Assembly (NCBI GenBank): GCA_947503005.1
Contig: CANNCA010000001.1
Coordinates: 682,001 to 746,000 of the forward strand
DNA from: an uncultured Flavobacteriaceae bacterium
GTDB lineage: Bacteria > Bacteroidota > Bacteroidia > Flavobacteriales > Flavobacteriaceae
DNA: 64,000 bases
Direction of reading: 5' to 3'
In this document: in pieces, positions 50,697-63,709 of the stretch
Layout of the letters: every line of letters starts with the position of its first letter
How positions within the stretch are numbered: the first letter of the stretch is position 1
The notes under the pieces: generated by a model
What the model was told of the DNA's origin: nothing
Databases searched by the model: none
The model's input: the letters and a program-made list of their open reading frames with translations, nothing else
Translations under genes and position numbers: made by a program

Positions 50697-50770
50697 GGTC
50701 TGGTAGTTCAGTTGGTTAGAATACCTGCCTGTCACGCAGGGGGTCGCGGGTTCGAGTCCCGTCCAGACCG
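50697..50770 (+). tRNA. tRNA-Asp (anticodon GTC)
   Basis: 74-nt cloverleaf. Acceptor GGTCTGG pairs with CCAGACC, discriminator G, D-arm AGTTCAGTTGGTTAGAAT, anticodon stem CCTGC/GCAGG with GTC at 50731-50733, T-arm GCGGGTTCGAGTCCCGT. The 3' end is the integration target of the island: its last 21 bases plus one flanking base are repeated at 63658-63679. The island left a complete tRNA. Confidence 0.97.
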
Positions 50771-50771
50771 C
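50750..50771 (+). repeat. attL of the genomic island (22-bp direct repeat, copy 1)
   Basis: Starts GTTCGAGTCC and ends CCAGACCGC, within the tRNA-Asp 3' end plus one base. An identical copy at 63658-63679 marks the right end. Confidence 0.9.
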
Positions 50772-50828: not shown

Positions 50829-51011
50829 CATTTTATTTAACATCAAAAAATACCATATAAAACCATATAAAAAGGGCGGAAATCGGTGCGTATTTTACCC
50901 CTCCAAAAACCCGCACCTAAATCGCTGTAATTGACTGTTAAAGAAAACTTTACAAAGAAATTTTAACATTTGTTTTTCGTACCTTCTGGTGAGGATTTAA
51001 AACCCGCACCT

Positions 51012-52268
51012 ATGTATGGAAAGATGAACATCCTTTTTTACCCGAAAAAATCTGAAAGAAATGATGACGGAATGGTCATGATTTATTCCCGTATAACCAT
51101 CAATGGCAAGCGGAGTGAATTTAGTTTGGGTCGACGTGTGAATGAACAAAGATGGGATTCAAGGGGTGGAAAGCTGAAAGGGACAACTACAGAAGTATCA
51201 AATTTCAATCGATTTCTGGACAATGTCAAGAACAGACTTTATGACATTTATGATTCACTTCTTAAAGAAAGAGAGGATATTTCGGCTACCATCATAAAGA
51301 ACATCTATTTAGGGAAAGAGGGCAAAGAGTATATGCTTCTCGAAATCTTTCAAGAGCATAACGATGAAATCGAAAGTCTGTTAGGTAAAGGTTTCACCAA
51401 AGGAACGCTACAACGTTATAAGGCAGCCTACAAACATGTATCAGCCTATATCCAACAGAACTATCATAGAAACGATATTCCCGTTCGTAGGGTCGACCAC
51501 AAGTTTATTACGGGATTAGAATTCTTTTTAAAGTCTCAAAGAAACTGTGAACACAACACGGCTATTAAATATGTGGTGAATTTTAAAAAGATTATGCGGA
51601 TTGCTTTAGCTAATGAATGGATAACTAAAGACCCGTTCTTTCATTGGAAAGCTTCTTGGAAAACAAAGGAAAAGCAATATCTGACACAAACCGAGCTAGA
51701 TGCGCTTAGAGAGAAGAAAGCTTTTTTGCCACGTCTTGATTTGGTTAGGGATATTTTTGTTTTCTGCTGTTACACAGGTCTGGCCTATTCGGATGTGCAA
51801 CAACTAAAAGAAGAACATATTATAATTGGGGTCAATGGGGATAGATGGATTAAAATGCCTAGAAAAAAAACCAAAGCTATCAGTAGTATACCATTGTTGG
51901 CTCCAGCGGAAGAAATTATTCTAAAGTATCATAACCATCCTTACGTATTAGATGGAAAAGGAGTTTTACCAGTATTGACCAATCAGAAATCTAATGCCTA
52001 TCTAAAGAAGATTGCCGATGTCTGTGGAATCAATAAAAATCTCACTACACATTTAGCACGGCATACATTTGCGACTACAGTGACATTGTCAAATGGAGTA
52101 TCAATTTCGACAGTCAGTAAAATGTTGGGACATCGTTCTTTAAAGACCACCCAGATTTATGCCAAGGTTCTTGATAGCAAAATAGCCGAGGAAATGGACC
52201 GATTAAAAGAAAAGATAAAACCTGTTGAAAATTCTAATCAAAAAGACGAAGGCAGCATTGAAAACTAA
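51012..52268 (+). CDS. Tyrosine recombinase/integrase of the island
   Basis: Site-specific recombinase expected to act on the tRNA-Asp att sites. The ATG at 51012 (MYGKMNILFYPKK) was chosen over an in-frame TTG at 50970. N-terminal arm-binding-like domain (MNILFYPKKSERNDDGMVMI), SAM-like core-binding domain (about 90-200), then the catalytic domain: CYTGLAYSDVQQLKEEHI, KTKAISSIPL (Lys), HLARHTFATT (His-x-x-Arg), LGHRSLKTTQIYAKV with nucleophile Tyr. At the first-Arg position the motif reads TGLAYSD, as in many Bacteroidota integrases that lack that Arg. 418 aa. Confidence 0.93.
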   Translation: MYGKMNILFYPKKSERNDDGMVMIYSRITINGKRSEFSLGRRVNEQRWDSRGGKLKGTTTEVSNFNRFLDNVKNRLYDIYDSLLKEREDISATIIKNIYLGKEGKEYMLLEIFQEHNDEIESLLGKGFTKGTLQRYKAAYKHVSAYIQQNYHRNDIPVRRVDHKFITGLEFFLKSQRNCEHNTAIKYVVNFKKIMRIALANEWITKDPFFHWKASWKTKEKQYLTQTELDALREKKAFLPRLDLVRDIFVFCCYTGLAYSDVQQLKEEHIIIGVNGDRWIKMPRKKTKAISSIPLLAPAEEIILKYHNHPYVLDGKGVLPVLTNQKSNAYLKKIADVCGINKNLTTHLARHTFATTVTLSNGVSISTVSKMLGHRSLKTTQIYAKVLDSKIAEEMDRLKEKIKPVENSNQKDEGSIEN

Positions 52269-52589: not shown

Positions 52590-53153
52590 ATGGAATTGAA
52601 AAAGAAGAAAATAAGTGATTTCTCGGCCATAAGTATTAATCGGATAGTTGCCGGAAGATATAGGGAGTTTTCAAAGAAAATTTCCAAGTCGCACACAATG
52701 ACTTTAGAACTGATGATGGACTTTTTTGAAGGAGCAAAAATCTCCCCAAAGAATAAATATTTGATGAACTATATGGGTTCTGAACATCGGCTGAATAAAA
52801 GGTTGGATTATTTGGAAGAACTACTTCGAAATTGGGAGAAGAACAGTAGCATCCCGAAAATCCATGAGATGCTCAAAAAGGTATTCGATTTTGCAGAGGC
52901 GGAGGAAAAAAGTAAAAGAAAGGATTTGGAGTTTCAGGAAAAGATGTACGACCATTCGTTAAAAAGGGACAAGGTGAGTCAATACGATAATTATATGCTA
53001 AAGGAGAGTTGGAAAAAAGAAAGAAATAGGATTTTGAAAGTATTGGATAAAATTAAATTTGAAAAACCTCGGTTTGGAAAATCGTACTATAAAATTGAAA
53101 TCGAGGAAAGTGATTTGGAAAATCTGAAACAAGATTTAAATCAAGAACTTTGA
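52590..53153 (+). CDS. Possible BfmA/BtgA-type mobilization protein
   Basis: A 187-aa Lys/Glu-rich soluble protein. N-terminal FSAISINRIVAGRYREFSKK then SHTMTLELMMDFFEGAKISP resembles the ribbon-helix-helix-like part of BfmA/BtgA mobilization proteins that follow integrases in Bacteroidota elements. The rest (about 70-187) is helical with coiled-coil-like charge pattern (LNKRLDYLEELLRNWEKNSS, EEKSKRKDLEFQEKMYDHSL). Assignment is from memory of that family and position only; otherwise it is a hypothetical accessory protein of the island. Confidence 0.5.
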   Translation: MELKKKKISDFSAISINRIVAGRYREFSKKISKSHTMTLELMMDFFEGAKISPKNKYLMNYMGSEHRLNKRLDYLEELLRNWEKNSSIPKIHEMLKKVFDFAEAEEKSKRKDLEFQEKMYDHSLKRDKVSQYDNYMLKESWKKERNRILKVLDKIKFEKPRFGKSYYKIEIEESDLENLKQDLNQEL

Positions 53154-53317: not shown

Positions 53318-53398
53318 CCGGCAAATATTTATTTTAAATGCCGTAATAAATACGGCAAATAATTTTAAATACGGCAAATATACTCTATATTTGCCGTA
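53318..53398. repeat. Cluster of TACGGCAAAT-type repeats upstream of fic
   Basis: Direct copies CCGGCAAATA (53318), TACGGCAAAT (53351 and 53370) and inverted copies ATGCCGTA (53339) and ATTTGCCGTA (53389-53398) within about 80 bases, ending 25 bases before the Fic start codon. It looks like an operator array or, less likely, structured leader. Confidence 0.75.
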
Positions 53399-53423
53399 TT
53401 ATTTACTGTAAACTCATATCGCA

Positions 53424-54527
53424 ATGTATCTACATCACAGAAAGGACTGGCCAAATTTTGAATGGGACGATGAAACCTTGCTTCCACATGTAAGCAAAGC
53501 ACGTGACCTTCAAGGTAGATTAATTGGCAGAATGGAGAGCATGGGTTTTGATTTAAGAGAAGAGGCTGTACTCGAAACATTAACGGAGGACATTGTAAAG
53601 ACTAGTGAAATAGAAGGTGAATTGTTGAATCCACAAGAGGTACGATCATCGGTAGCTCGAAGGTTGGGAATGGATATATCAGGATTACCAGAAGCAAGTC
53701 GTGATGTGGAGGGCGTAGTTGAGATGATGTTGGACGCAACTCAAAAATATAAAGAACCGCTATCCAAAGATCGTCTATGCGGATGGCATGCGGCACTTTT
53801 TCCAACAGGGAGAAGTGGTATGTACAAAATAACGGTTGGAGACTGGAGAGATGATAAGAAGGGGCCTATGCAAGTTGTTTCTGGACCGATGGGAAGAGAG
53901 AAAGTACATTATACAGCTCCTGAGGCATCAAGACTTGAAGGTGAGATGGATACATTCCTTGAATGGTTCAATACGAATGAGAGTACGGAACCAATAATCA
54001 AGTCAGCCATAGCGCACTTATGGTTCGTTAGCATCCACCCATTTGATGATGGTAATGGGAGAATAGCAAGAGCTATAGGGGATTGTCAATTGGCGCGCGC
54101 CGATAGAACCAGTCAAAGATTCTATAGCATGTCAGCACAAATCATGAAATCCAAAAAGGGATATTATGACATATTGGAGTCAACTCAAAAAGGAAGTATG
54201 GATGTGACCCAATGGCTTGTGTGGTATTTCGAACGCTTAACCGAGGCACTTGAAGCAACGGCCGAAATATTGTCCAAAATAATGGTAAAAGCAAAATTCT
54301 GGGAGCGACATAAAACCACTCAATTCAATGAACGACAGATATACATGATAAATAAGCTTCAAGGCGATTTCATCGGTAAATTATATTCATCAAAATGGGG
54401 GAAAATGACAAAAGTACACAGAGACACTGCTCTTAAGGATATTCAAGATTTAGTCGAAAAAGGGGTTTTGTTAGATTCTGGTGAAGGCGGAAGGAGTACT
54501 AACTACGTTTTGAATCTTTCTACTTAG
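53424..54527 (+). CDS. Fic-family protein with N-terminal inhibitory motif and C-terminal wHTH
   Basis: Fic proteins transfer AMP or similar groups to target proteins. N-terminal DUF4172-like region (MYLHHRKDWPNFEWDDETLL) contains inhibitory-helix motif TSEIEGE ([ST]xxxE[GN], about residues 59-64), which would restrain activity in cis. The core motif HPFDDGNGRIAR is intact (205-216, catalytic His205). The C-terminus (about 325-367: KVHRDTALKDIQDLVEKGVL) resembles a winged helix, perhaps DNA-binding. The upstream repeat cluster could be bound by it (autoregulation). Length 367 aa is typical. No separate antitoxin is seen. Confidence 0.92.
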   Translation: MYLHHRKDWPNFEWDDETLLPHVSKARDLQGRLIGRMESMGFDLREEAVLETLTEDIVKTSEIEGELLNPQEVRSSVARRLGMDISGLPEASRDVEGVVEMMLDATQKYKEPLSKDRLCGWHAALFPTGRSGMYKITVGDWRDDKKGPMQVVSGPMGREKVHYTAPEASRLEGEMDTFLEWFNTNESTEPIIKSAIAHLWFVSIHPFDDGNGRIARAIGDCQLARADRTSQRFYSMSAQIMKSKKGYYDILESTQKGSMDVTQWLVWYFERLTEALEATAEILSKIMVKAKFWERHKTTQFNERQIYMINKLQGDFIGKLYSSKWGKMTKVHRDTALKDIQDLVEKGVLLDSGEGGRSTNYVLNLST

Positions 54528-54697: not shown

Positions 54698-57226
54698 TTG
54701 AAAAATGAAGCTCACGCAAGAATAAAGATAAATCAACTGCTCGAAGAAGCAGGATGGAGATTCTTTGACAATGAGCAAGGTTCAGCGAATATCTTACTTG
54801 AAAATCATGTAAAAATTACCCAAACTGAAGTAGATGCTTGGGGAAATGACTTTGAGAAAGTTAAATCTGGTTCATTAGATTTTTTACTCGTTGACACAGA
54901 CGATAAGCCTATTTGCGTCCTAGAAGCAAAAAAGGAAAGTTTACATCCACTTGTCGCAAAGGAACAAGCAAGAAAATATGCAAAAACTGTTGGTGCTCAA
55001 TTCATCATTCTCTCGAATGGAATTGTCCACTTTTTATGGAACTTAGAAAAAGGCAATCCAAAACCTATTTATAAATTTCCTTCACCATCTGAAATAGGTG
55101 CAATTAAAGAATGGAATCCTGACCGAACTGAATTAGCAAATGAAAAGGTCGAAGATGACTTTATTGCGATTGTTCAAATGCCAGATTATGCGGTAAGACC
55201 TGAGTGGAAAGGAAACCCAATTGACAGCAAAGATTTCGTTTGGAATAACGGATTACGATTTTTGAGGCATTACCAATTAAAAGCAATTCAAAAACTTCAA
55301 AAGGCAGTTGCAAATAAAAAAGACCGTTTTCTTTTTGAAATGGCAACTGGAACTGGAAAAACACTTACTGCTGCTGGAGTAATTCGTCTTTTTCTAAGAA
55401 CTCAAAACGCAAGAAGAGTTTTGTTTCTAGTCGACAGATTGGAATTGGAAGACCAAGCTTGGAAAGCTTTTACCAATTATCTTAAACCAGATTACACAAC
55501 ATTTATTTACAAAGAACATAAAAGCGATTGGAGAAAAGCAGACATAGTTGTTACAACTATTCAATCATTAATGTTCGACAATAAATACAGATATCAATTT
55601 AAACCTACAGATTTTGATTTGCTAATCTCTGATGAGTCGCATCGTTCAATTTCTGGAAACGCCAGAGCTGTTTTCGAATATTTTCACGGTTATAAATTAG
55701 GTTTAACAGCAACACCAAAAGATTATTTGAAAAGTGTAGATATCGACAGAGTCAAGGAAAACGACCCTAGAGAAATCGAAAGACGTTTGCTAAGAGATAC
55801 TTATGCAACCTTCGGTTGCGAAGGTGGTGACCCAACTTTTCGTTATTCATTAATTGATGGTGTAAAAGATGGTTATTTAATTAATCCTAAGGTCTTAGAT
55901 GCTAGGACAGAAATAACGACACAATTACTTTCTGATGAAGGTTATTCCGTTGCAGTCACCACAGAAGAAGGAGAAGAAACGGAAACCTTTGTTTCCAGAG
56001 ATTTTGAGAAAAAATTCTTTTCAGAAAAAACAAATCGTGTTTTCTGTAAAACGTTTTTAGAAAATGCTTTACGTGACCCAATCACAAAAGAAATAGGCAA
56101 AACAATTGTGTTTGCAGTGAGTCAAAATCACGCAAGAAAAATCACTGAAATCCTAAATGACTTTGCAGATCAATTATATCCTAACAGATACAATTCAGAT
56201 TTTGCTGTTCAAGTGACTTCACAAGTCAGTGACGCACAACAAATGACAATCAACTTTACGAATAACAATCTTAATGGTAAATCCACTTGGTTAGAAGGGT
56301 ACAAATCGAGTAAAACAAGAATTTGCGTAACAGTTGGAATGATGACAACAGGTTATGATTGTCCTGACATACTGAACCTATGTATGATGCGACCAATATT
56401 CAGTCCTGCCGATTTTGTTCAAATTAAAGGACGAGGAACTCGTAAACATACATTCACTCATAAATTTAAAAACGAGCTTCACGAAGAAGAAACCATAAAA
56501 GAAGAAAAAGTAGTATTTAAACTCTTTGACTTCTTTGCAAACTGTGAGTATTTCGAAGAAAAATTTGATTATGATGAAAAACTAAAACTACCTAAACCGA
56601 GAAATGGTGAAGCTGAAGGTGGAGGCGGGGGAATTGATATTGACAAATACACCAGTTTACGACCAGACCCAATTTTAACTTTGAATGAAGAACAAATTGG
56701 TTATGAAGGAATGCGAATCGACAGAGAACTTTTTAGAAAGTTTGAAGACCGAATTGTTATGGATGACATTATCAAAAAGAATGTTGAATTAGGCAATTGG
56801 GAACACGTTGTCAGTCATATTCAGGCAGAGATATTTGACAAACCAGAAGAATACTTTAATCTTGAAAAATTAAGAAAAGCCGCAAAAATTGACCGAAAAG
56901 TTTCAATTAGAGAAGTCGTAGAAAAAATTTTCGGAATCATACCAAAATTCAAATCTAAAGATGAGTTGTTAGAAGAAGAATTTGACAAATTCATTTCTAT
57001 CTATCCACCAGAGGAAGATGTAAACACTAGAGCTTTGAAGTACTTTTTCAAAGCTTATATTGTTGACCAAGATATTAGAAAAATCATTGAAACTAAAGAC
57101 TTTCAAGCATTACAAACTAACCCCACACTAACTATATCACAATTTAAGGAAGTGGCAAAAAAGTACCGCGAAGTAATACCGGTCTACATAAAAGACTATA
57201 TAAAATTAGAGCAGTTTGCTGCTTAA
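54698..57226 (+). CDS. hsdR: Type I restriction endonuclease subunit R (HsdR)
   Basis: ATP-dependent DNA translocase and nuclease of a type I restriction system. The frame starts at TTG 54698 (MKNEAHARIKINQLLEEAGW); no in-frame ATG fits. N-terminal nuclease domain: Asp61 (LDFLLVD), CVLEAKK (Glu76, Lys78), QARKY (90-94). Superfamily 2 motor: MATGTGKT (Walker A, 215-222), DESHR (312-316), LTATPKDY, and GRGTRKH (motif VI). C-terminal EcoEI-R-like region. Length 842 aa fits compact HsdR proteins. It is first in a tightly packed defence operon; 6 bases separate it from the next gene. Confidence 0.94.
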   Translation: MKNEAHARIKINQLLEEAGWRFFDNEQGSANILLENHVKITQTEVDAWGNDFEKVKSGSLDFLLVDTDDKPICVLEAKKESLHPLVAKEQARKYAKTVGAQFIILSNGIVHFLWNLEKGNPKPIYKFPSPSEIGAIKEWNPDRTELANEKVEDDFIAIVQMPDYAVRPEWKGNPIDSKDFVWNNGLRFLRHYQLKAIQKLQKAVANKKDRFLFEMATGTGKTLTAAGVIRLFLRTQNARRVLFLVDRLELEDQAWKAFTNYLKPDYTTFIYKEHKSDWRKADIVVTTIQSLMFDNKYRYQFKPTDFDLLISDESHRSISGNARAVFEYFHGYKLGLTATPKDYLKSVDIDRVKENDPREIERRLLRDTYATFGCEGGDPTFRYSLIDGVKDGYLINPKVLDARTEITTQLLSDEGYSVAVTTEEGEETETFVSRDFEKKFFSEKTNRVFCKTFLENALRDPITKEIGKTIVFAVSQNHARKITEILNDFADQLYPNRYNSDFAVQVTSQVSDAQQMTINFTNNNLNGKSTWLEGYKSSKTRICVTVGMMTTGYDCPDILNLCMMRPIFSPADFVQIKGRGTRKHTFTHKFKNELHEEETIKEEKVVFKLFDFFANCEYFEEKFDYDEKLKLPKPRNGEAEGGGGGIDIDKYTSLRPDPILTLNEEQIGYEGMRIDRELFRKFEDRIVMDDIIKKNVELGNWEHVVSHIQAEIFDKPEEYFNLEKLRKAAKIDRKVSIREVVEKIFGIIPKFKSKDELLEEEFDKFISIYPPEEDVNTRALKYFFKAYIVDQDIRKIIETKDFQALQTNPTLTISQFKEVAKKYREVIPVYIKDYIKLEQFAA

Positions 57227-57232
57227 TTAGAG

Positions 57233-58240
57233 ATGAGAGTTATCACCCAAAAACCAGAGATAAAAAGGCTTCATCATAAGTTGACAAAGAAACTAGAAAA
57301 CTTTGCTTCCGAGACTATTATTGCGCGTACGGGCCATAAAGGAAATAGTTTTGACAAGGAGGTAAAGTATTCCGAAGAGTTGGACATTTGGTGGGACATG
57401 GGTGGATATAGCAAAGGTAAATCGGGAGTACGTTACTGGAATGCCTTTGGTATTGGCAAACCAATTCCTAAAAGAATCGCTAATATTATTTGCGAAATCA
57501 ACTACCCTGAAGAAGGCATTAATAAACGCGTAGCCGCAAACTGGGTTCAAGATGGTAGAGATTTTTTACTGGTTCATAGTGGTAAAATTGGAGGCGGTAG
57601 AAAAGGAATTGGTAAAAACGGTTTCATAGAAAATTACAGCGGCAGTTTTCAAGAAATTGATTCGCTGGATTTGCCAAATCAAGTAACGGTAATTGGCAAT
57701 TTAAAAGATGAAAACTTGCCTTATCAAATTAAAAATTTTGTTTACGAAGCAAGTCGAATTAAAGATTTGCTAGTTGGTAACGAAGCTAAGACGACTATCG
57801 CAGAACCCTTAGAGAAAATTAAGCACAGTTTTAATGAAGAGTTTGTGGGCACTAAAGAATACAAACACAGAAAAGGGAAAGTTTCGGCAACAGCTAATCA
57901 TGGTCTTGTTGTAAACAATCTCAAAAAACGAATTGAGGAAATGGGCTTGCTAGTGGCAAATGACCAACAACGCGATTTGTATATCTATAATAAAAAGGCC
58001 AAGATAGAAAGTGTTTTTGAGGTAAAGACGTCGCTTAAATCACAATCCATATTTACAGCAGTAGGACAGCTTTTTGTAAACAATGCTCGCCTAAATCCAC
58101 AACCTAGATTGATATACGTTATTCCAGAGAAACCGAATAAAAACCTCTCAAAAACATTTAAAAAACTAAATATAGAAACCTTAGTGTATCACCTATCAAA
58201 AGGAAAGACAAGTTTTAATAAACTAGAGAAATTTATTTAA
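57233..58240 (+). CDS. PD-(D/E)XK-like protein of unknown function inside the hsd operon
   Basis: I do not recognise a named family. The C-terminal part (about 220-320) looks like a PD-(D/E)XK nuclease fold: HGLVVNNLKKRIEEMG helix, QQRDLYIYN (Asp248), SVFEVKTSLKS (Glu263-x-Lys265), TAVGQLFVN (Gln279) and RLIYVIPEKP strand. The N-terminal 200 residues (for example WWDMGGYSKGKSGVRYWNAF) are of unknown type. It is sandwiched between hsdR and the HsdM-HsdS fusion, sharing a TAATG overlap with the latter, so it is probably co-produced with the restriction system. It could be an extra nuclease or a non-cutting recognition module. Confidence 0.7.
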   Translation: MRVITQKPEIKRLHHKLTKKLENFASETIIARTGHKGNSFDKEVKYSEELDIWWDMGGYSKGKSGVRYWNAFGIGKPIPKRIANIICEINYPEEGINKRVAANWVQDGRDFLLVHSGKIGGGRKGIGKNGFIENYSGSFQEIDSLDLPNQVTVIGNLKDENLPYQIKNFVYEASRIKDLLVGNEAKTTIAEPLEKIKHSFNEEFVGTKEYKHRKGKVSATANHGLVVNNLKKRIEEMGLLVANDQQRDLYIYNKKAKIESVFEVKTSLKSQSIFTAVGQLFVNNARLNPQPRLIYVIPEKPNKNLSKTFKKLNIETLVYHLSKGKTSFNKLEKFI

Positions 58241-60711
58241 TGCTAGATACAATAACAAAGAAAAGAATTGATGACTGCCGAGATATATTGGTAGGTAAAC
58301 TTCCAGACCCAAAAGCACAGATAGAACAAATAACCATAGGCTTAATTTACAAGTTTATGGATGATATGGATAAGGAAGCGATTGATTTAGGTGGCAAAGC
58401 CAAATTCTTTTCAGACTATACCATTCCAGACCCAAAAGATGAAGAAAATGAAATCACAATTCCTTTTTCAAATTATAGTTGGGATAGACTTTTTGACACA
58501 AAAGTAACTGCATCAGAAATGTTGCGTTTGTATTCTGAAGCCATTGAGGGAATGGAAAAAAACCCAAACATTCCACAACTCTTTAGAGATATTTTCAATA
58601 ATGCTTATTTGCCCTATCGCGACCCAGAAACGCTAAAGCTGTTCTTGAAAACCATAGGCGAATTCGAGTACACTCACAGTGAAAAATTAGGTGACGCCTT
58701 TGAGTATTTGCTTTCTGTAATGGGTTCACAAGGTGATGCTGGACAATTCAGAACACCAAGACACATTATTGATTTCTTAGTAGCTATTGTCGACCCAAGT
58801 AAAACAGATACAATAATGGACCCTGCTTGCGGTACTGCTGGATTCTTAATTTCTGCTTTTAAACACCTTAAACTAAAAAACAATAATCAATTTACACCTG
58901 ACGAGCAGAAAAAGATTATCAAAAACTTTGTTGGATATGATATTTCACCTGATATGGTGCGATTAAGTTTGGTGAATTTGTATTTACATGGATTTACAGA
59001 ACCTCATATTTATGAATACGATACTTTGAGTAGCGAAGAACGATGGAATGACAACTTCGATGTCATTTTAGCCAACCCACCATTTATGAGTCCGAAAGGA
59101 GGTATTAGACCTCACAAAAAATTTACAATATCAAGTAAACGTAGTGAAGTTCTATTTGTAGATTATATCGCTGAACATTTAAACCCAAAAGGAAGAGCAG
59201 GAATCATTGTGCCAGAAGGAGTTATTTTTCAAAGTGGGACAGCATACAAGGATTTACGAAAAATGTTGGTAGAAAACTATTTATATGCAGTAGTTAGTTT
59301 GCCAGCAGGTGTATTCAACCCTTATAGTGGTGTGAAAACTTCTATTCTTTTATTGGACAAAGAACTTGCTAAAAAGAGCAATAGAATTCTATTTATCAAA
59401 ATAGAGAACGATGGTTATAGTTTAGGAGCACAACGAAATGAAATAAAGGGAAGTCAGCTTATAGAAGCCATTGAAACTACAAAGACATTTCAACAAGCTA
59501 TATTAATAGGAAAAGACTTTGAAAACACTACTATTGCTCATTCAGTAGATATAAAAAAAATAGTAAAGAATGGTGAATACAATTTAAACGGTAGTAGATA
59601 TAAAGAGCAACATATCTCTGATTCCGCCTTTCCATTGATTAAACTTAGTGATGTACTAGACTATGAACAACCCACGAATTATATCGTAGAAAGCACAGAA
59701 TATAAAGACCAATATAAAACACCTGTACTAACAGCTGGTAAATCTTTTGTTCTTGGTTATACAAATGAAGAAAAAGGAATATATGATTCACCTCTACCTG
59801 TAATCATTTTCGATGATTTTACTACGGCGACAAAATATGTAGATTTTCCATTTAAGGTCAAGTCTTCAGCTATGAAGATTCTTAAAGCGAATTCAAACGC
59901 TAACATTACATATTTGTATTATGTAATGCAAAAAATAAATTTTGATAGTAGTAATCACAAACGATACTGGATTTCTAGATATTCTAATATCGAAATACCT
60001 CTACCACCTTTAACCATTCAAGAAGAAATAGTTGCTGAAATAGAAGGCTATCAAAAAATAATTGATGGTGCAAAAGCAATACTAGCTAACTACAAGCCTA
60101 AAATAGATATTGACACAGATTGGGAAATGGTGACAATAGGTAGTGTTTGTAAAATGAAAGGCGGTTATGCATTTAAAAGTGCTGATTATGTAGATGAAGG
60201 TGCTACAGTAATAAGAATGGGTAATATTAAAGCTATGCATTTTGATTATTTAAATAATCCTAAATACCTGCCAAAGTCTTATTTACAAACTCATAAAAAC
60301 TACATGCTAACGAAAGGAGATATACTTATTTCAATGACTGGAACTGTGGGGAAAGAAGATTATGGTAATGTATGTATGGTAGACGTTGAAGGGGATTTTC
60401 TATTGAATCAACGAGTTGGAAAATTCGAAATAACTAGTTCTGAGTTGGATAATGATTTTCTCTATTTAGTGGCTAATCAAGATTGGTTTAGAAAACAAAT
60501 TTTCAAAAATACATCTGGTGGAGTAAGACAGGCCAATATTAGTAATAGAGGAATTGAAGCAATTGAAATTCCTTTACCAGATATTGAAGTGCAACAACAA
60601 ATTGTTAAAAATATAGCGAATGAGCAAAAATTGGTACATGGGAGTAAAGAACTTATTCAAATCTTTGGGAAAAAGATAAAGGATAGAATTGCTAAAGTTT
60701 GGGAGAGCTAA
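58240..60711 (+). CDS. hsdM-hsdS: Type I modification-specificity fusion (HsdM-HsdS)
   Basis: One polypeptide carries modification and specificity functions. The HsdM part (about 1-440) has the N-terminal helical domain, SAM motif DPACGTAGF (194-202), VGYDISPDMVRLSLVNLYLH, and N6-adenine catalytic NPPF (279-282). The HsdS part has two target-recognition domains (about 455-595 and 655-790), each followed by a conserved helix: IPLPPLTIQEEIVAEIEGYQ and IPLPDIEVQQQIVKNIANEQ. Two half-sites imply a bipartite recognition sequence. Normally M and S are separate genes; here they are fused. Start and stop overlap neighbours by single bases (TAATG). Confidence 0.92.
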   Translation: MLDTITKKRIDDCRDILVGKLPDPKAQIEQITIGLIYKFMDDMDKEAIDLGGKAKFFSDYTIPDPKDEENEITIPFSNYSWDRLFDTKVTASEMLRLYSEAIEGMEKNPNIPQLFRDIFNNAYLPYRDPETLKLFLKTIGEFEYTHSEKLGDAFEYLLSVMGSQGDAGQFRTPRHIIDFLVAIVDPSKTDTIMDPACGTAGFLISAFKHLKLKNNNQFTPDEQKKIIKNFVGYDISPDMVRLSLVNLYLHGFTEPHIYEYDTLSSEERWNDNFDVILANPPFMSPKGGIRPHKKFTISSKRSEVLFVDYIAEHLNPKGRAGIIVPEGVIFQSGTAYKDLRKMLVENYLYAVVSLPAGVFNPYSGVKTSILLLDKELAKKSNRILFIKIENDGYSLGAQRNEIKGSQLIEAIETTKTFQQAILIGKDFENTTIAHSVDIKKIVKNGEYNLNGSRYKEQHISDSAFPLIKLSDVLDYEQPTNYIVESTEYKDQYKTPVLTAGKSFVLGYTNEEKGIYDSPLPVIIFDDFTTATKYVDFPFKVKSSAMKILKANSNANITYLYYVMQKINFDSSNHKRYWISRYSNIEIPLPPLTIQEEIVAEIEGYQKIIDGAKAILANYKPKIDIDTDWEMVTIGSVCKMKGGYAFKSADYVDEGATVIRMGNIKAMHFDYLNNPKYLPKSYLQTHKNYMLTKGDILISMTGTVGKEDYGNVCMVDVEGDFLLNQRVGKFEITSSELDNDFLYLVANQDWFRKQIFKNTSGGVRQANISNRGIEAIEIPLPDIEVQQQIVKNIANEQKLVHGSKELIQIFGKKIKDRIAKVWES

Positions 60712-61559
60712 TGGAAGCTTTAAGAGAAATTGTAGACCAACACGACCGGGTGGCCTTTTTAATCGGCAATGGCCCTAACTTGGCATCCAATATTATGCCT
60801 TCTTGGAAAGACTTGTTAAAATCAATTTCAGATAAACCCATACCCTTTAGTGTAGACGGCCTTTCAAACACTGAAGTTTATGATTTGGTCGAATTAAACT
60901 CTGATAATCCAAATGAAGTAAAAAAGAAAGTTGGAAATAAACTAGAATTGCTTTGGGAACACGACACCTCTCTTCACCGTAGCTTGATGAATTTTGCCAA
61001 CTCAGTAAGTGCTCCCGTTTTGACCACTAATTTTGATGAGGTTTTTGAAAAATCGTTCGGAGCAAAACTTTACAGAATTGGTTCAAAAGGTTTCACAAGA
61101 TACTATCCCTGGAGGTCGTACTATGGTATTGCTCGACTAGCTTCGCCTTTAGATGGTTTTGGTATTTGGAAAATTCATGGTGATGTTAGATATACTGATA
61201 GCATTCGTTTGGGATTAACGGATTATATGGGCAGTGTTGAAAGAGCAAGAAGGATGATTCATAAAGGAGAGGATAGACTTTTCAGGGGGAAACGCAGAAA
61301 GCAATGGAAGGGGCATCAATCTTGGCTACATATCTGGTTCAATTTACCAATCGTAATTTTTGGCTTTGGTTTTGGTACGGACGAAGTCTTTTTGCGATGG
61401 CTTTTGATTGAACGTAGACGTTATCTGAGAATATATAATGCACCTATGGAGGTTTACTACCTTTCGGTAGGCCAACCGCAACCATCCATTGCCAATCTAT
61501 TACAAAACCTAGGAGTTGAAATAAGAGTTTTAACGAGCTATGAAGAATTATATTCGTAA
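60711..61559 (+). CDS. SIR2-like (predicted NAD-hydrolase) defence protein
   Basis: The ATG at 60711 overlaps the hsdMS stop (TAATG), preferred over an in-frame TTG at 60699. SIR2-type landmarks are RVAFLIGNGPNLASN (Gly-rich NAD loop, residues 13-27), PVLTTNFDEVFEKSFG (TTNFD 105-109), IWKIHGDVR (His156, catalytic candidate), and VIFGFGFGTDEVFLRWLL (216-232). Standalone 282-aa SIR2 domain. SIR2 proteins in bacterial defence deplete NAD on infection; whether this one does is inference. It is between the restriction fusion and a HEPN-like gene, all coupled. Confidence 0.88.
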   Translation: MEALREIVDQHDRVAFLIGNGPNLASNIMPSWKDLLKSISDKPIPFSVDGLSNTEVYDLVELNSDNPNEVKKKVGNKLELLWEHDTSLHRSLMNFANSVSAPVLTTNFDEVFEKSFGAKLYRIGSKGFTRYYPWRSYYGIARLASPLDGFGIWKIHGDVRYTDSIRLGLTDYMGSVERARRMIHKGEDRLFRGKRRKQWKGHQSWLHIWFNLPIVIFGFGFGTDEVFLRWLLIERRRYLRIYNAPMEVYYLSVGQPQPSIANLLQNLGVEIRVLTSYEELYS

Positions 61560-62284
61560 TGGAGGAAGCCTACGAAATATTAAATTACCTGCCAATTCGA
61601 TTTAAAAATCGAACGGAACAGGAGTATATCGAGTTTCTATGGGATTCTTTTGAAAGCAATTATACGAATGAAAAATACCAATTTTCTTTTATGGCGTATC
61701 ATATGCTTTTTATGAGTTTCGTTTATTTCAATGTTTGGCAAATCAAAAAAATACATCAGGAAGATTACGATAAAATCACTCTAGGTTTTAATGATTGTTT
61801 TATTGATGCTTCTTCTCCTTTTACATTTAGCAAAGAAAGTGAAAGCCGAATATTTTTACTCTTTACCTTTTTCGGTTTAGGTAAAGATAAAATTGGTAAT
61901 TACAAAAAACTTGTAAAAAGCAGAAATGAAGTAGCTCACAGCAACGGTCATATTTACTTCCCATCACAAGAAACTGTTAATGAAAAGATTACAGAATTTT
62001 TGAAATTTGCAGATGAAATTCAAGATAAAACCAAGTCCGCTATAGAAGATGGTTTTGAGAAGTTTTTAATAGATAGTCAAGATGAAGAAGAAAGACGATA
62101 TATAGATATTCAAGAACAAATAAACGAGGAATTGATACACGAACATTATATGTCACAAAAGGACATTGAATTTTGTTTGAATTATAATATTACCCAATTA
62201 TCAGAACAACCGAATTATGCCGAAATTGAAAAGATATTTGAAGAATTGAAAACGGAATACACCCAAGAAGAAAGTACTTTATAA
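61559..62284 (+). CDS. HEPN-like helical protein (predicted RNase or partner)
   Basis: Unnamed family. All-helical, 241 aa, with HEPN signature R-N-x-x-x-H in SRNEVAHSNG (Arg122-His127), preceded by helices such as FMAYHMLFMSFVYFNVWQIK and RIFLLFTFFGLGKDKIGNYK, where an R-phi-x4-6-H segment is normally located. C-terminal 100 residues are charged coiled-coil-like (EEERRYIDIQEQINEELIHE). HEPN proteins in toxin and defence systems are frequently RNases. It shares TAATG with the SIR2-like gene, and precedes the Ntn hydrolase by 9 bases. Confidence 0.7.
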   Translation: MEEAYEILNYLPIRFKNRTEQEYIEFLWDSFESNYTNEKYQFSFMAYHMLFMSFVYFNVWQIKKIHQEDYDKITLGFNDCFIDASSPFTFSKESESRIFLLFTFFGLGKDKIGNYKKLVKSRNEVAHSNGHIYFPSQETVNEKITEFLKFADEIQDKTKSAIEDGFEKFLIDSQDEEERRYIDIQEQINEELIHEHYMSQKDIEFCLNYNITQLSEQPNYAEIEKIFEELKTEYTQEESTL

Positions 62285-62293
62285 AACTTTATT

Positions 62294-63334
62294 ATGACTT
62301 TAATAATTGGTTGTATCACAAAAGAATTTGGCATCATAGCTGGAGATACACAATTGTCTTCTGGTGATTTGGCTAGAGGAGAATTTGATAGACTAATTCA
62401 GCATAAGGTACAACAGTATGGTCCAAATTTTATGATGGGTATATTGGGTAAATGGAGCTTTATTGACCCTATGAAAGATGGTACAGGCACTTTGATAGAC
62501 TTTCACAAAACATTACAAAAAGCCTTGCTTAATTCTGAAAACACCAACAAACTCGACTTCCTAAATAAATATCTCCCTGGTAAACCAAATATAGAAGCTA
62601 CGGCCATCTACGTTGCAAAAGATAAGGCATACAAACTGGATTGTGTTACTAGTGATGGAAATACCAAAACCATCAAAAATATCAAGGTACAGGGTAAGTC
62701 ACTAATGTTCAATGAACCCTTTTTTGATACGAATCCAAATTTTGTAGAAGATTTGATTAGAGAGTTTTGCGAGAGTCACAAATTGTCCGATAATCTTCAG
62801 GATACGATATTTCTCTTAAACAATGTTATACTTGATATCATAACAAGGGGTAAAACTTTGAGTTTATCGGTTAAAAATGTTACCCTTACAGGTATTCCAA
62901 ATAGCGTGGGAGGCTACGTTACTATGCAAGTGCTATTAGGAGATGTTCATCACCGTAACTGCTTGCACAATGCCTACCTCGACCCTAAGGTATTCTTGGA
63001 CGGAACTACATTCCCATTCGCTAGATCTGTTGACCACTCAAATAAGACTAATTATGTCGATAATCTTGCTATGATAGCACGAAATACAAACAATTCCAGT
63101 AATAGTATTACAAATGAACTTAAAGAGGTACTACTAAAACAGATTGAGTTTATTAATTCCGAAGAAATTTTTGGAACAGACCTCTTAAATGAGTTGATTG
63201 AAAGAATTAATGACAATTTCGAGATGAAGCTCGTAAAATATCCTGAAGATAAAAGCTCAAACGCCCTACTAACCGGTTTCTTAGGTGATGACGGTACCGA
63301 GGAAAACCACGAATATTATAAAAGATTTTTCTAG
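62294..63334 (+). CDS. Proteasome/HslV-like Ntn hydrolase (predicted N-terminal-Thr protease)
   Basis: The start MTLIIGCITKEFGIIAGDTQ resembles the HslV/proteasome beta start. After Met removal Thr2 becomes residue 1; Asp lies exactly at position 17 (IIAGDTQ), and Lys at 37 (IQHKVQQ) is the best match to the active-site Lys33, with a four-residue insertion. The following FMMGILGKWSFIDP fits the substrate-pocket strand. The C-terminal half (about 150-346) is longer than HslV (about 175 aa) and of unknown type (for example DVHHRNCLHNAYLDPKVFLD). It is last in the operon after SIR2-like and HEPN-like genes. No ATPase partner is seen. Ntn fold is supported by motif only. Confidence 0.68.
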   Translation: MTLIIGCITKEFGIIAGDTQLSSGDLARGEFDRLIQHKVQQYGPNFMMGILGKWSFIDPMKDGTGTLIDFHKTLQKALLNSENTNKLDFLNKYLPGKPNIEATAIYVAKDKAYKLDCVTSDGNTKTIKNIKVQGKSLMFNEPFFDTNPNFVEDLIREFCESHKLSDNLQDTIFLLNNVILDIITRGKTLSLSVKNVTLTGIPNSVGGYVTMQVLLGDVHHRNCLHNAYLDPKVFLDGTTFPFARSVDHSNKTNYVDNLAMIARNTNNSSNSITNELKEVLLKQIEFINSEEIFGTDLLNELIERINDNFEMKLVKYPEDKSSNALLTGFLGDDGTEENHEYYKRFF

Positions 63335-63657: not shown

Positions 63658-63679
63658 GTTCGAGTCCCGTCCAGACCGC
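63658..63679 (+). repeat. attR of the genomic island (22-bp direct repeat, copy 2)
   Basis: Identical to 50750-50771, covering the last 21 tRNA-Asp bases and one more base. No other tRNA part is present here. Confidence 0.9.
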
Positions 63680-63683
63680 ATTA

Positions 63684-63709
63684 GCCTCTAAGAAATTAGA
63701 GGCTTTTTT
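63684..63709 (+). terminator. Displaced tRNA-Asp terminator beyond attR
   Basis: GCCTCTAA-GAAA-TTAGAGGC followed by six T, 4 bases after attR. In the uninterrupted chromosome it would directly follow tRNA-Asp. Confidence 0.85.

Follow-up and report, generated by a model that had tools for sequence, protein, structure and literature searches.

A predicted proteasome-like N-terminal nucleophile (Ntn) hydrolase, encoded at the tail of a type I restriction-modification (RM) operon, belongs to a family whose genes stand beside DNA-cutting motor systems of different kinds, and this recurrent linkage between the Ntn protein and a nuclease is the new part of the analysis reported here. The operon lies in a 64,000-nt stretch of DNA, hereafter the window, from an uncultured Flavobacteriaceae bacterium (assembly GCA_947503005.1, contig CANNCA010000001.1, positions 682,001 to 746,000, forward strand), where it is carried, together with genes for a SIR2-like protein, a HEPN protein and the Ntn protein, by a 12.9-kb integrative element inserted in a tRNA-Asp gene and bounded at both ends by an exact 22-nt repeat (Table 1). 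The reading that we favor, and that we consider probable rather than secure, is that of a mobile island on which back-up effectors are stacked onto a type I RM operon and the Ntn protein would act on, or on behalf of, the motor nuclease. Loci of relatives that were examined are designated by L-numbers (L002 to L076), and G302 is the genome of a relative from the same genus.

Organization of the operon

The R motor/nuclease, M and S components of a type I system are all present in the window, as judged by matches to Pfam ResIII, HSDR_N_2, N6_Mtase and Methylase_S; the HsdR protein also matches the NCBIfam model restrict_EcoAI (E 4e-65, under the equivalog cut-off). The TAA stop of the hsdM-hsdS fusion (60709-60711) overlaps the ATG of the SIR2 gene (60711), the SIR2 stop (61557-61559) overlaps the HEPN ATG (61559), and the Ntn gene starts 9 bases past the HEPN stop. 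A preliminary description of this DNA, made from its letters and open reading frames (ORFs) alone, had placed three genes directly after hsdMS, the first two at TAATG overlaps; its coordinates, frames and overlaps were right, all three genes are intact, and the residues that it named are present, namely TTNFD (105-109) and KIHGD with H156 in SIR2, R122-N-E-V-A-H127 in HEPN, and Thr2, Asp18 and Lys38 in Ntn, all of them beyond what chance would give. The coupling to the type I operon that it proposed was borne out as well, since a six-gene set including the RM genes recurs at locus L008 with 57-87% protein identity, there beside tRNA-Phe; found at two different tRNA genes, the set can therefore move as a unit. 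The complete trio with type I RM genes was seen in the window and L008 only.

Ntn genes beside DNA-cutting defense systems

Nine Ntn loci were compared, L002/L012 (whose PIN genes are 100% identical) and L003/L036 each being counted once. The Ntn gene lies in an RM operon in seven of them and upstream of gajA in one. The type I operons hold different companions: SIR2 and HEPN in the window and L008, GmrSD and a YgjP peptidase in L010 and L013 (Pfam was run on L010, and L013 was assigned by ORF likeness and an HsdR tblastn match), a protein without a Pfam match, apparently membrane-bound by eye, in L011, and PIN_12 in L012. At L007 the Ntn gene accompanies a type III mod-res pair, at L009 its stop lies 5 bases before gajA of a Gabija system, and at L036 two long ORFs come after it, of which the second weakly matches a STAND NTPase. 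In all seven RM loci the Ntn gene closes the close-spaced gene run, the next same-strand ORF at L007 standing about 190 bases further on, and tRNA genes follow just past it in L008 (Phe) and in L011 and L012 (Ser). Two of these neighborhoods have features of their own: a YgjP-like metallopeptidase gene lies between hsdR and Ntn at L010 (9275-9988) and L013 (7283-7996), which places two different predicted proteases at an RM operon tail, and L009 (2048-14950) is a dense defense cluster comprising a metallophosphoesterase and a NACHT-like gene (weak), a SEC-C protein, Ntn and the Gabija pair.

With RM, Gabija and GmrSD queries (tblastn), five of the nine Ntn loci were matched at flanks of about 1.5 kb, against none of 20 control loci of PF00227 proteins (12 of them judged HslV-like), and it is this contrast at equal flanks that is informative; the same RM/Gabija queries matched 8/9 Ntn loci at 4 kb and at 8 kb, the control having been run at 1.5 kb only. 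The Ntn protein of the window is 60% identical to that of L008 and 59% identical to that of the type III-linked L007, and the three form one group (support 95/100) whose inner order is unresolved. The Ntn gene thus goes with several kinds of DNA-cutting motor system, and the repeated place of its relatives beside such defense systems points to a role in immunity, as far as gene neighborhoods can indicate one. The family is sparse: it was found in 3/299 family genomes, the window's own included, at six loci in one genome-contig scan and on one viral contig, and searches of 72,556 plasmid and 50,697 phage records at E 0.01 yielded nothing; an early three-row profile had detected only the own genome, that is 1/395 each at order and phylum level (the samples share genomes).

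The proteasome-like assignment, which had first been made from an HslV-like N-terminus, was upheld by structure comparison. The AlphaFold model of the protein (predicted local distance difference test, pLDDT, 75; predicted template modeling score, pTM, 0.80; low-confidence stretches 23-33, 187-206, 226-249 and 320-337) matched 20S proteasome subunits in Foldseek (best E 2.2e-5 at probability 1.00, with TM 0.38 relative to the query and 0.60 relative to the target); 96 matches reached E <= 0.001, and the 50 best of 413 were all proteasome entries. The model therefore supports a proteasome beta-type fold, to which an approximately 130-residue C-terminal extension is added. T2, D18 and K38, which correspond to the Thr1/Asp17/Lys33 set, are invariant in 9/9 homologues. 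In eight of the nine loci MTL is the only possible ATG/GTG/TTG start since the preceding in-frame stop (L007 has one upstream alternative), and the threonine is therefore the second residue; an initiator methionine is generally removed before threonine, which would make it Thr1.

By sequence the relationship is far less visible. No credible family was obtained in Pfam, NCBIfam, PHROGs or PADLOC, where matches were weak and sub-threshold or none, and no PF00227 match was found at E <= 1, so that the protein is not a PF00227 member by sequence. A profile of the family aligned with ten HslV sequences ungapped from the catalytic Thr through the Asp, at E 0.002 but with a probability of only 13.9, and against PDB sequences it gave nothing meaningful (best E 0.21). 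A PF00227 protein was not found in the window's own genome (the control was positive in 10/14 genomes); one is present in 153/198 sampled genomes of the phylum, and a distant one in 1 of seven other Ntn-carrying genomes.

HEPN and SIR2 have separate distributions

The HEPN gene belongs with the RM methylase/specificity gene, which it follows in 5/5 loci examined, directly at L014, L019 and L039 and with SIR2 in between in the window and L008. On a Paracoccus plasmid (L014) and a viral contig (L019), whose HsdR and HsdMS are respectively 59% and 43-44% identical to those of the window, HEPN overlaps the hsdMS stop, and in a gut phage record (L039, 3871-7586) it starts just past a single-chain HSDR_N/N6_Mtase/Methylase_S protein. 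Neither SIR2 nor Ntn was found at L014 and L019 by tblastn with the window proteins, nor at the L039 locus, which leaves Ntn in 2/5 HEPN loci. Besides L008, the HEPN family was found in 1/299 family genomes (its own), one plasmid, one phage record and one viral contig, a spread that covers Bacteroidota, an alphaproteobacterial plasmid, a viral contig and a gut phage record. The window protein scores 19.2 bits against HEPN_RiboL-PSP (PF18735), below the curated cut-off of 28.4, and 5/5 members match this profile at E <= 1 (best E 0.0012). R122, N123, A126 and H127 are invariant in 5/5 aligned relatives, of which the most distant is 27% identical and two, L014 and L019, have almost the same sequence; an R-x4-6-H motif formed by R122 and H127 is thus present throughout. 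The AlphaFold model built from 3 sequences is all-helical, with a pLDDT of 79.0. No ABC or SMC-type profile matched the protein, the single ATP synthase B match (E 0.88) being at chance level. The family is a candidate for small RNase toxins that are guarded by RM and have no ATPase domain.

The SIR2 gene is a freely moving single gene, most of the homologues examined being without RM, HEPN or Ntn. The family was found in 5/299 family genomes, 5 plasmid records, 2 phage records and 6 viral contigs, and in only its own among 14 genus genomes examined; in the viral-contig scans, alignment queries for SIR2 or HEPN confirmed relatives and single queries confirmed none, and the loci examined for context leave aside one plasmid hit (H5) and two phage hits (H8, H9). 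No relative of the window HsdR, HsdMS, HEPN or Ntn was detected by tblastn at SIR2 loci L034 (58%), L035, L016, L017 and L020-L025, and an RM gene is absent from the annotation of L015. A remote relative, L037, sits in an hsd operon, and another, L038, adjoins an ORF that we presume to resemble DUF262. At L023 (5141-8510) the SIR2 relative is in two separated pieces, and the ORFs between them resemble an insertion element by eye.

The SIR2 assignment of the preliminary description was supported, the protein scoring 27.9 bits against Pfam SIR2_2 (PF13289; cut-off 24.5, E 2.9e-6); at E <= 0.1 the same profile is matched by 10/11 aligned relatives. Throughout this 11-sequence alignment N107 is unchanged, as is the first glycine-rich motif (G19 N20 G21). 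H156 is present in the window, and the same column holds Asn in the stand-alone L015, L016, L020 and L035, which suggests that their NADase chemistry may be altered or lost. A weak ThsA match (E 5e-4) was also obtained; the protein consists of the SIR2 domain alone, no sensor domain being recognized.

Proposed mechanism and alternative explanations

On this observed anatomy, with its repeats and modularly distributed genes, and on a modeled Ntn fold, the following biochemistry may be proposed. HsdR and HsdMS would restrict unmethylated DNA as a first line. The HEPN protein would most likely be an RNase silenced by the RM complex and freed once a phage disables it, following a PrrC-like logic; in the model set out in section 10 of PMC3710099, the RNase activity of RM-linked HEPN proteins is reversibly held by RM subunits and released upon RM neutralization, and the position of HEPN behind the M/S gene is best explained by this model, here without the ATPase domain of PrrC. 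From what is known of its family, the SIR2 protein most likely depletes NAD as an effector in its own right, one that the operon has recruited. The Ntn protein would most likely be a dedicated, propeptide-less threonine protease, recruited repeatedly beside type I, type III and Gabija motors. Rather than working for SIR2 and HEPN in particular, it would most likely target the motor nuclease or its attackers, as a local analogue of the restriction alleviation that depends on ClpXP. This role is proposed because HsdR, Res and GajAB are its recurrent neighbors and because proteolysis of HsdR is a known means of control, the turnover of HsdR-type motors being governed by ClpXP (PMC4231737, in the part available). 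The back-up abortive infection put forward in the preliminary description agrees with the published logic of RM-linked HEPN proteins (PMC3710099, section 10); the coupling of all three genes into one unit is not supported. A bolder extension, to which we give little credence, is that a portable proteasome-like protease placed on unrelated motors senses the state of the motor, one specific cleavage either stopping it, for the protection of the host, or freeing a neighboring suicide effector (HEPN, SIR2 or PIN) when a phage blocks it.

Several points weigh against the favored reading. The main difficulty is that no AAA+ unfoldase gene was recognized beside Ntn, so that degradation of a folded motor is left unexplained. 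Connectase, a proteasome homologue, is a ligase, and a proteasome-like fold therefore does not imply a protease (PMC8665760, in the part available). The functions of SIR2, HEPN and Ntn are predicted only. At the L036 Ntn locus no RM or Gabija gene was seen, and the neighbor counts are partly circular, the RM queries having been drawn from Ntn loci. The HEPN assignment is the least firm of the three, resting on motif and weak profile rather than on fold: one of five models was confident (the other four had pLDDT 52-59), and Foldseek returned no match at E <= 0.001, the sole informative one being HEPN AF0298 at rank 4 (E 1.7, probability 0.60). A sixth weak match to the HEPN profile, L028 in the L008 genome (E 3e-4), also lies outside the five-locus count.

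The strongest competitor, which we hold as a tentative alternative to the whole, is that the Ntn protein is itself a back-up effector, a protease loosed on host proteins upon inhibition of the neighboring nuclease, and hence an interchangeable suicide gene of RM tails; for the Ntn protein taken singly, this effector role is nearly as likely as that of a motor-directed protease. The gene occupies the place of other effectors (SIR2, HEPN, PIN_12) and is exchanged between systems, and back-up effectors beside modification-based defense are a published theme (PMC12839542). However, at least three of its RM loci hold a further possible effector (SIR2 and HEPN twice, PIN once), which would be unneeded if one effector sufficed. 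Narrow activity is moreover usual for proteasome-like folds that lack an unfoldase.

That the genes merely gather in mobile islands as passive cargo, with no functional link to RM, is in our view unlikely. All of them do lie within an integrative element, the cargo at the corresponding site of G302 differs, and SIR2 is mostly unlinked; yet start and stop codons overlap, HEPN keeps its place behind the M/S gene even on the alphaproteobacterial plasmid and in the gut phage record, and the tail position of Ntn recurs in different operons.

Still less probable is a dedicated trio, a single back-up suicide module in which Ntn cleaves, and thereby activates or restrains, the SIR2 and HEPN toxins, as the preliminary description had supposed. 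The tight overlaps in the window and the full conservation of the trio at L008 speak for it; elsewhere the genes separate. SIR2 and HEPN are near Ntn in only 2/9 Ntn loci (tblastn with the window proteins; L007 covers only 3.7 kb upstream), the direct neighbor of Ntn elsewhere being PIN_12, the YgjP peptidase, the membrane-looking protein, type III Res or GajA; HEPN is without Ntn in 3/5 loci; and the Ntn protein of the window is as close to the type III-linked copy as to that of L008. Since a DNA-targeting nuclease system neighbors Ntn in 8/9 loci, SIR2 and HEPN cannot be its general substrates. A fixed three-gene system was accordingly rejected on distribution, each tail gene occurring more widely without the others.

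Equally improbable is that the Ntn protein is no protease and is instead a specific amidohydrolase or connectase-like ligase that modifies a defense protein, for although the L003 copy weakly matches connectase MJ0548_N (E 0.1, below cut-off) and the expected Ser129 and Ser169 (conventional numbering) appear on our reading of the alignment to be Asn140 and Val205, stretch 187-206 being of low confidence in the model, no connectase is among the 50 best fold matches and Thr1/Asp17/Lys are kept.

Relation to known systems

Among described systems, PrrC-EcoprrI, a type Ic RM system with an embedded HEPN anticodon nuclease (PMC3710099, section 10), is similar in placing a HEPN RNase, presumably silenced by RM, within a type I operon. 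It differs in that PrrC has an ABC ATPase regulatory domain, whereas the HEPN protein of the window is without one and stands alone as a protein, its gene following an hsdMS fusion in the company of SIR2 and Ntn. The association of HEPN with RM and the back-up idea are already known, and suicidal effectors such as HEPN and PIN beside RM and BREX have been discussed (PMC3710099 and PMC12839542, in the parts available); the stacking of SIR2, HEPN and Ntn is unmentioned in those parts, the strings 'sir2' and 'proteasom' having 0 occurrences in the main text of PMC12839542 and 'sir2' having 0 in the available text of PMC3710099.

SIR2 domains also occur in defense proteins such as ThsA and SIR2-STAND. 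The SIR2 protein of the window shares with them the SIR2_2 domain and its GNG, TxN and His motifs, and differs in being a short protein of that domain alone.

HslV, Anbu, BPH, connectase and 22 further families (PMC8665760, in the part available) resemble the Ntn protein in the Thr1/Asp17/Lys set, the proteasome-type core and the lack of a propeptide; the window protein differs in escaping PF00227, in its C-terminal extension and in being linked to operons of RM and Gabija systems. That 2021 survey, in the part available, noted no gene neighborhood that hinted at a function for its 22 novel families, and the Ntn family, compared with them by description only, may be one of them (for example a PMI family). 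ClpXP-dependent restriction alleviation (PMC4231737, in the part available) likewise controls a type I motor subunit by proteolysis, as is proposed for Ntn, but ClpXP is a housekeeping AAA+ protease and Ntn an operon-encoded hydrolase with no recognized unfoldase. No description of a proteasome-like gene in RM or Gabija operons was found in the literature by titles and abstract starts, subscription papers being mostly beyond reach; as far as such searches extend, a proteasome-like family with a recurrent defense-operon context is undescribed. This context gives a proteasome-type family a directly testable role. If the favored reading is true, the proteasome fold would join the folds of defense-associated proteases, and one would have to ask whether bacteria encode, within operons, proteases that control or back up their own restriction motors.

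The integrative element and its other genes

The element has both hallmarks of a tRNA-integrated mobile element, an integrase gene beside a tRNA gene and a direct repeat of the tRNA 3' end. In G302, locus L076 shows the tRNA-Asp gene, an integrase remnant (77% over 106 aa and 73% over 30 aa to the window integrase), a Fic gene whose product is 86% identical to that of the window (tblastn), and other cargo, all between the same left- and right-flank genes as in the window. Both attachment repeats are recognizable there, the far copy matching at 93% across 28 bases. By tblastn the HsdR, BfmA and Ntn queries had no counterpart at L076, and no nucleotide match to window positions 54.52-63.55 kb was obtained. 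The same tRNA-Asp site with different cargo is therefore a cargo-exchanging integration site.

Table 1. Features of the tRNA-Asp-integrated element in the window
Feature	Position	Strand	Basis
tRNA-Asp (gtc), integration target; last 22 bases (50750-50771) are the left attachment repeat	50697..50771	+	ARAGORN, repeat search
Tyrosine integrase of the element	50970..52268	+	Pfam Phage_integrase, Phage_int_SAM_5, Arm-DNA-bind_5
BfmA/BtgA-type mobilization protein	52590..53153	+	NCBIfam NF041200, E 1.4e-14, 54 bits (cut-off 24)
Fic/DUF4172 protein, element cargo	53424..54527	+	Pfam Fic, DUF4172
HsdR (EcoAI-like), type I restriction motor/nuclease subunit, first gene of the operon	54698..57226	+	Pfam ResIII, HSDR_N_2
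Unclassified 335-aa protein between hsdR and hsdMS	57233..58240	+	Pfam DUF6602, E 0.089, below cut-off
HsdM-HsdS fusion, methylase and two specificity stretches	58240..60711	+	Pfam N6_Mtase 3.7e-57, Methylase_S 2.6e-27 (2 stretches)
SIR2-like protein, predicted NADase, 282 aa	60711..61559	+	Pfam SIR2_2, family alignment
HEPN protein, predicted endoRNase, 241 aa	61559..62284	+	HEPN_RiboL-PSP (sub-threshold), invariant motif
Proteasome-like Ntn hydrolase (predicted), 346 aa	62294..63334	+	AlphaFold/Foldseek; invariant T2, D18, K38
Right attachment repeat, exact 22-nt copy of the tRNA-Asp 3' end	63658..63679	+	Repeat search
Terminator-like hairpin just beyond the right repeat	63683..63704	+	Hairpin scan

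The 335-aa protein, which has a 67% identical counterpart in L008 (tblastn), is possibly an extra nuclease, and we take it to be a possible PD-(D/E)XK enzyme from its motif. A DUF6602 gene also adjoins HEPN, on the opposite strand, in L014. The Fic/DUF4172 protein is possibly a protein-modifying toxin. A promoter scan of the window gave 61 promoters against 47.3 +/- 6.3 expected and was left out of the interpretation. Within the G302 island, the cargo protein encoded at L076 3363-3899 has a weak PD-T4-10_B match, and in the window two terminator-like hairpins and 19-nt inverted arms lie at 53339-53406, between the BfmA and Fic genes.

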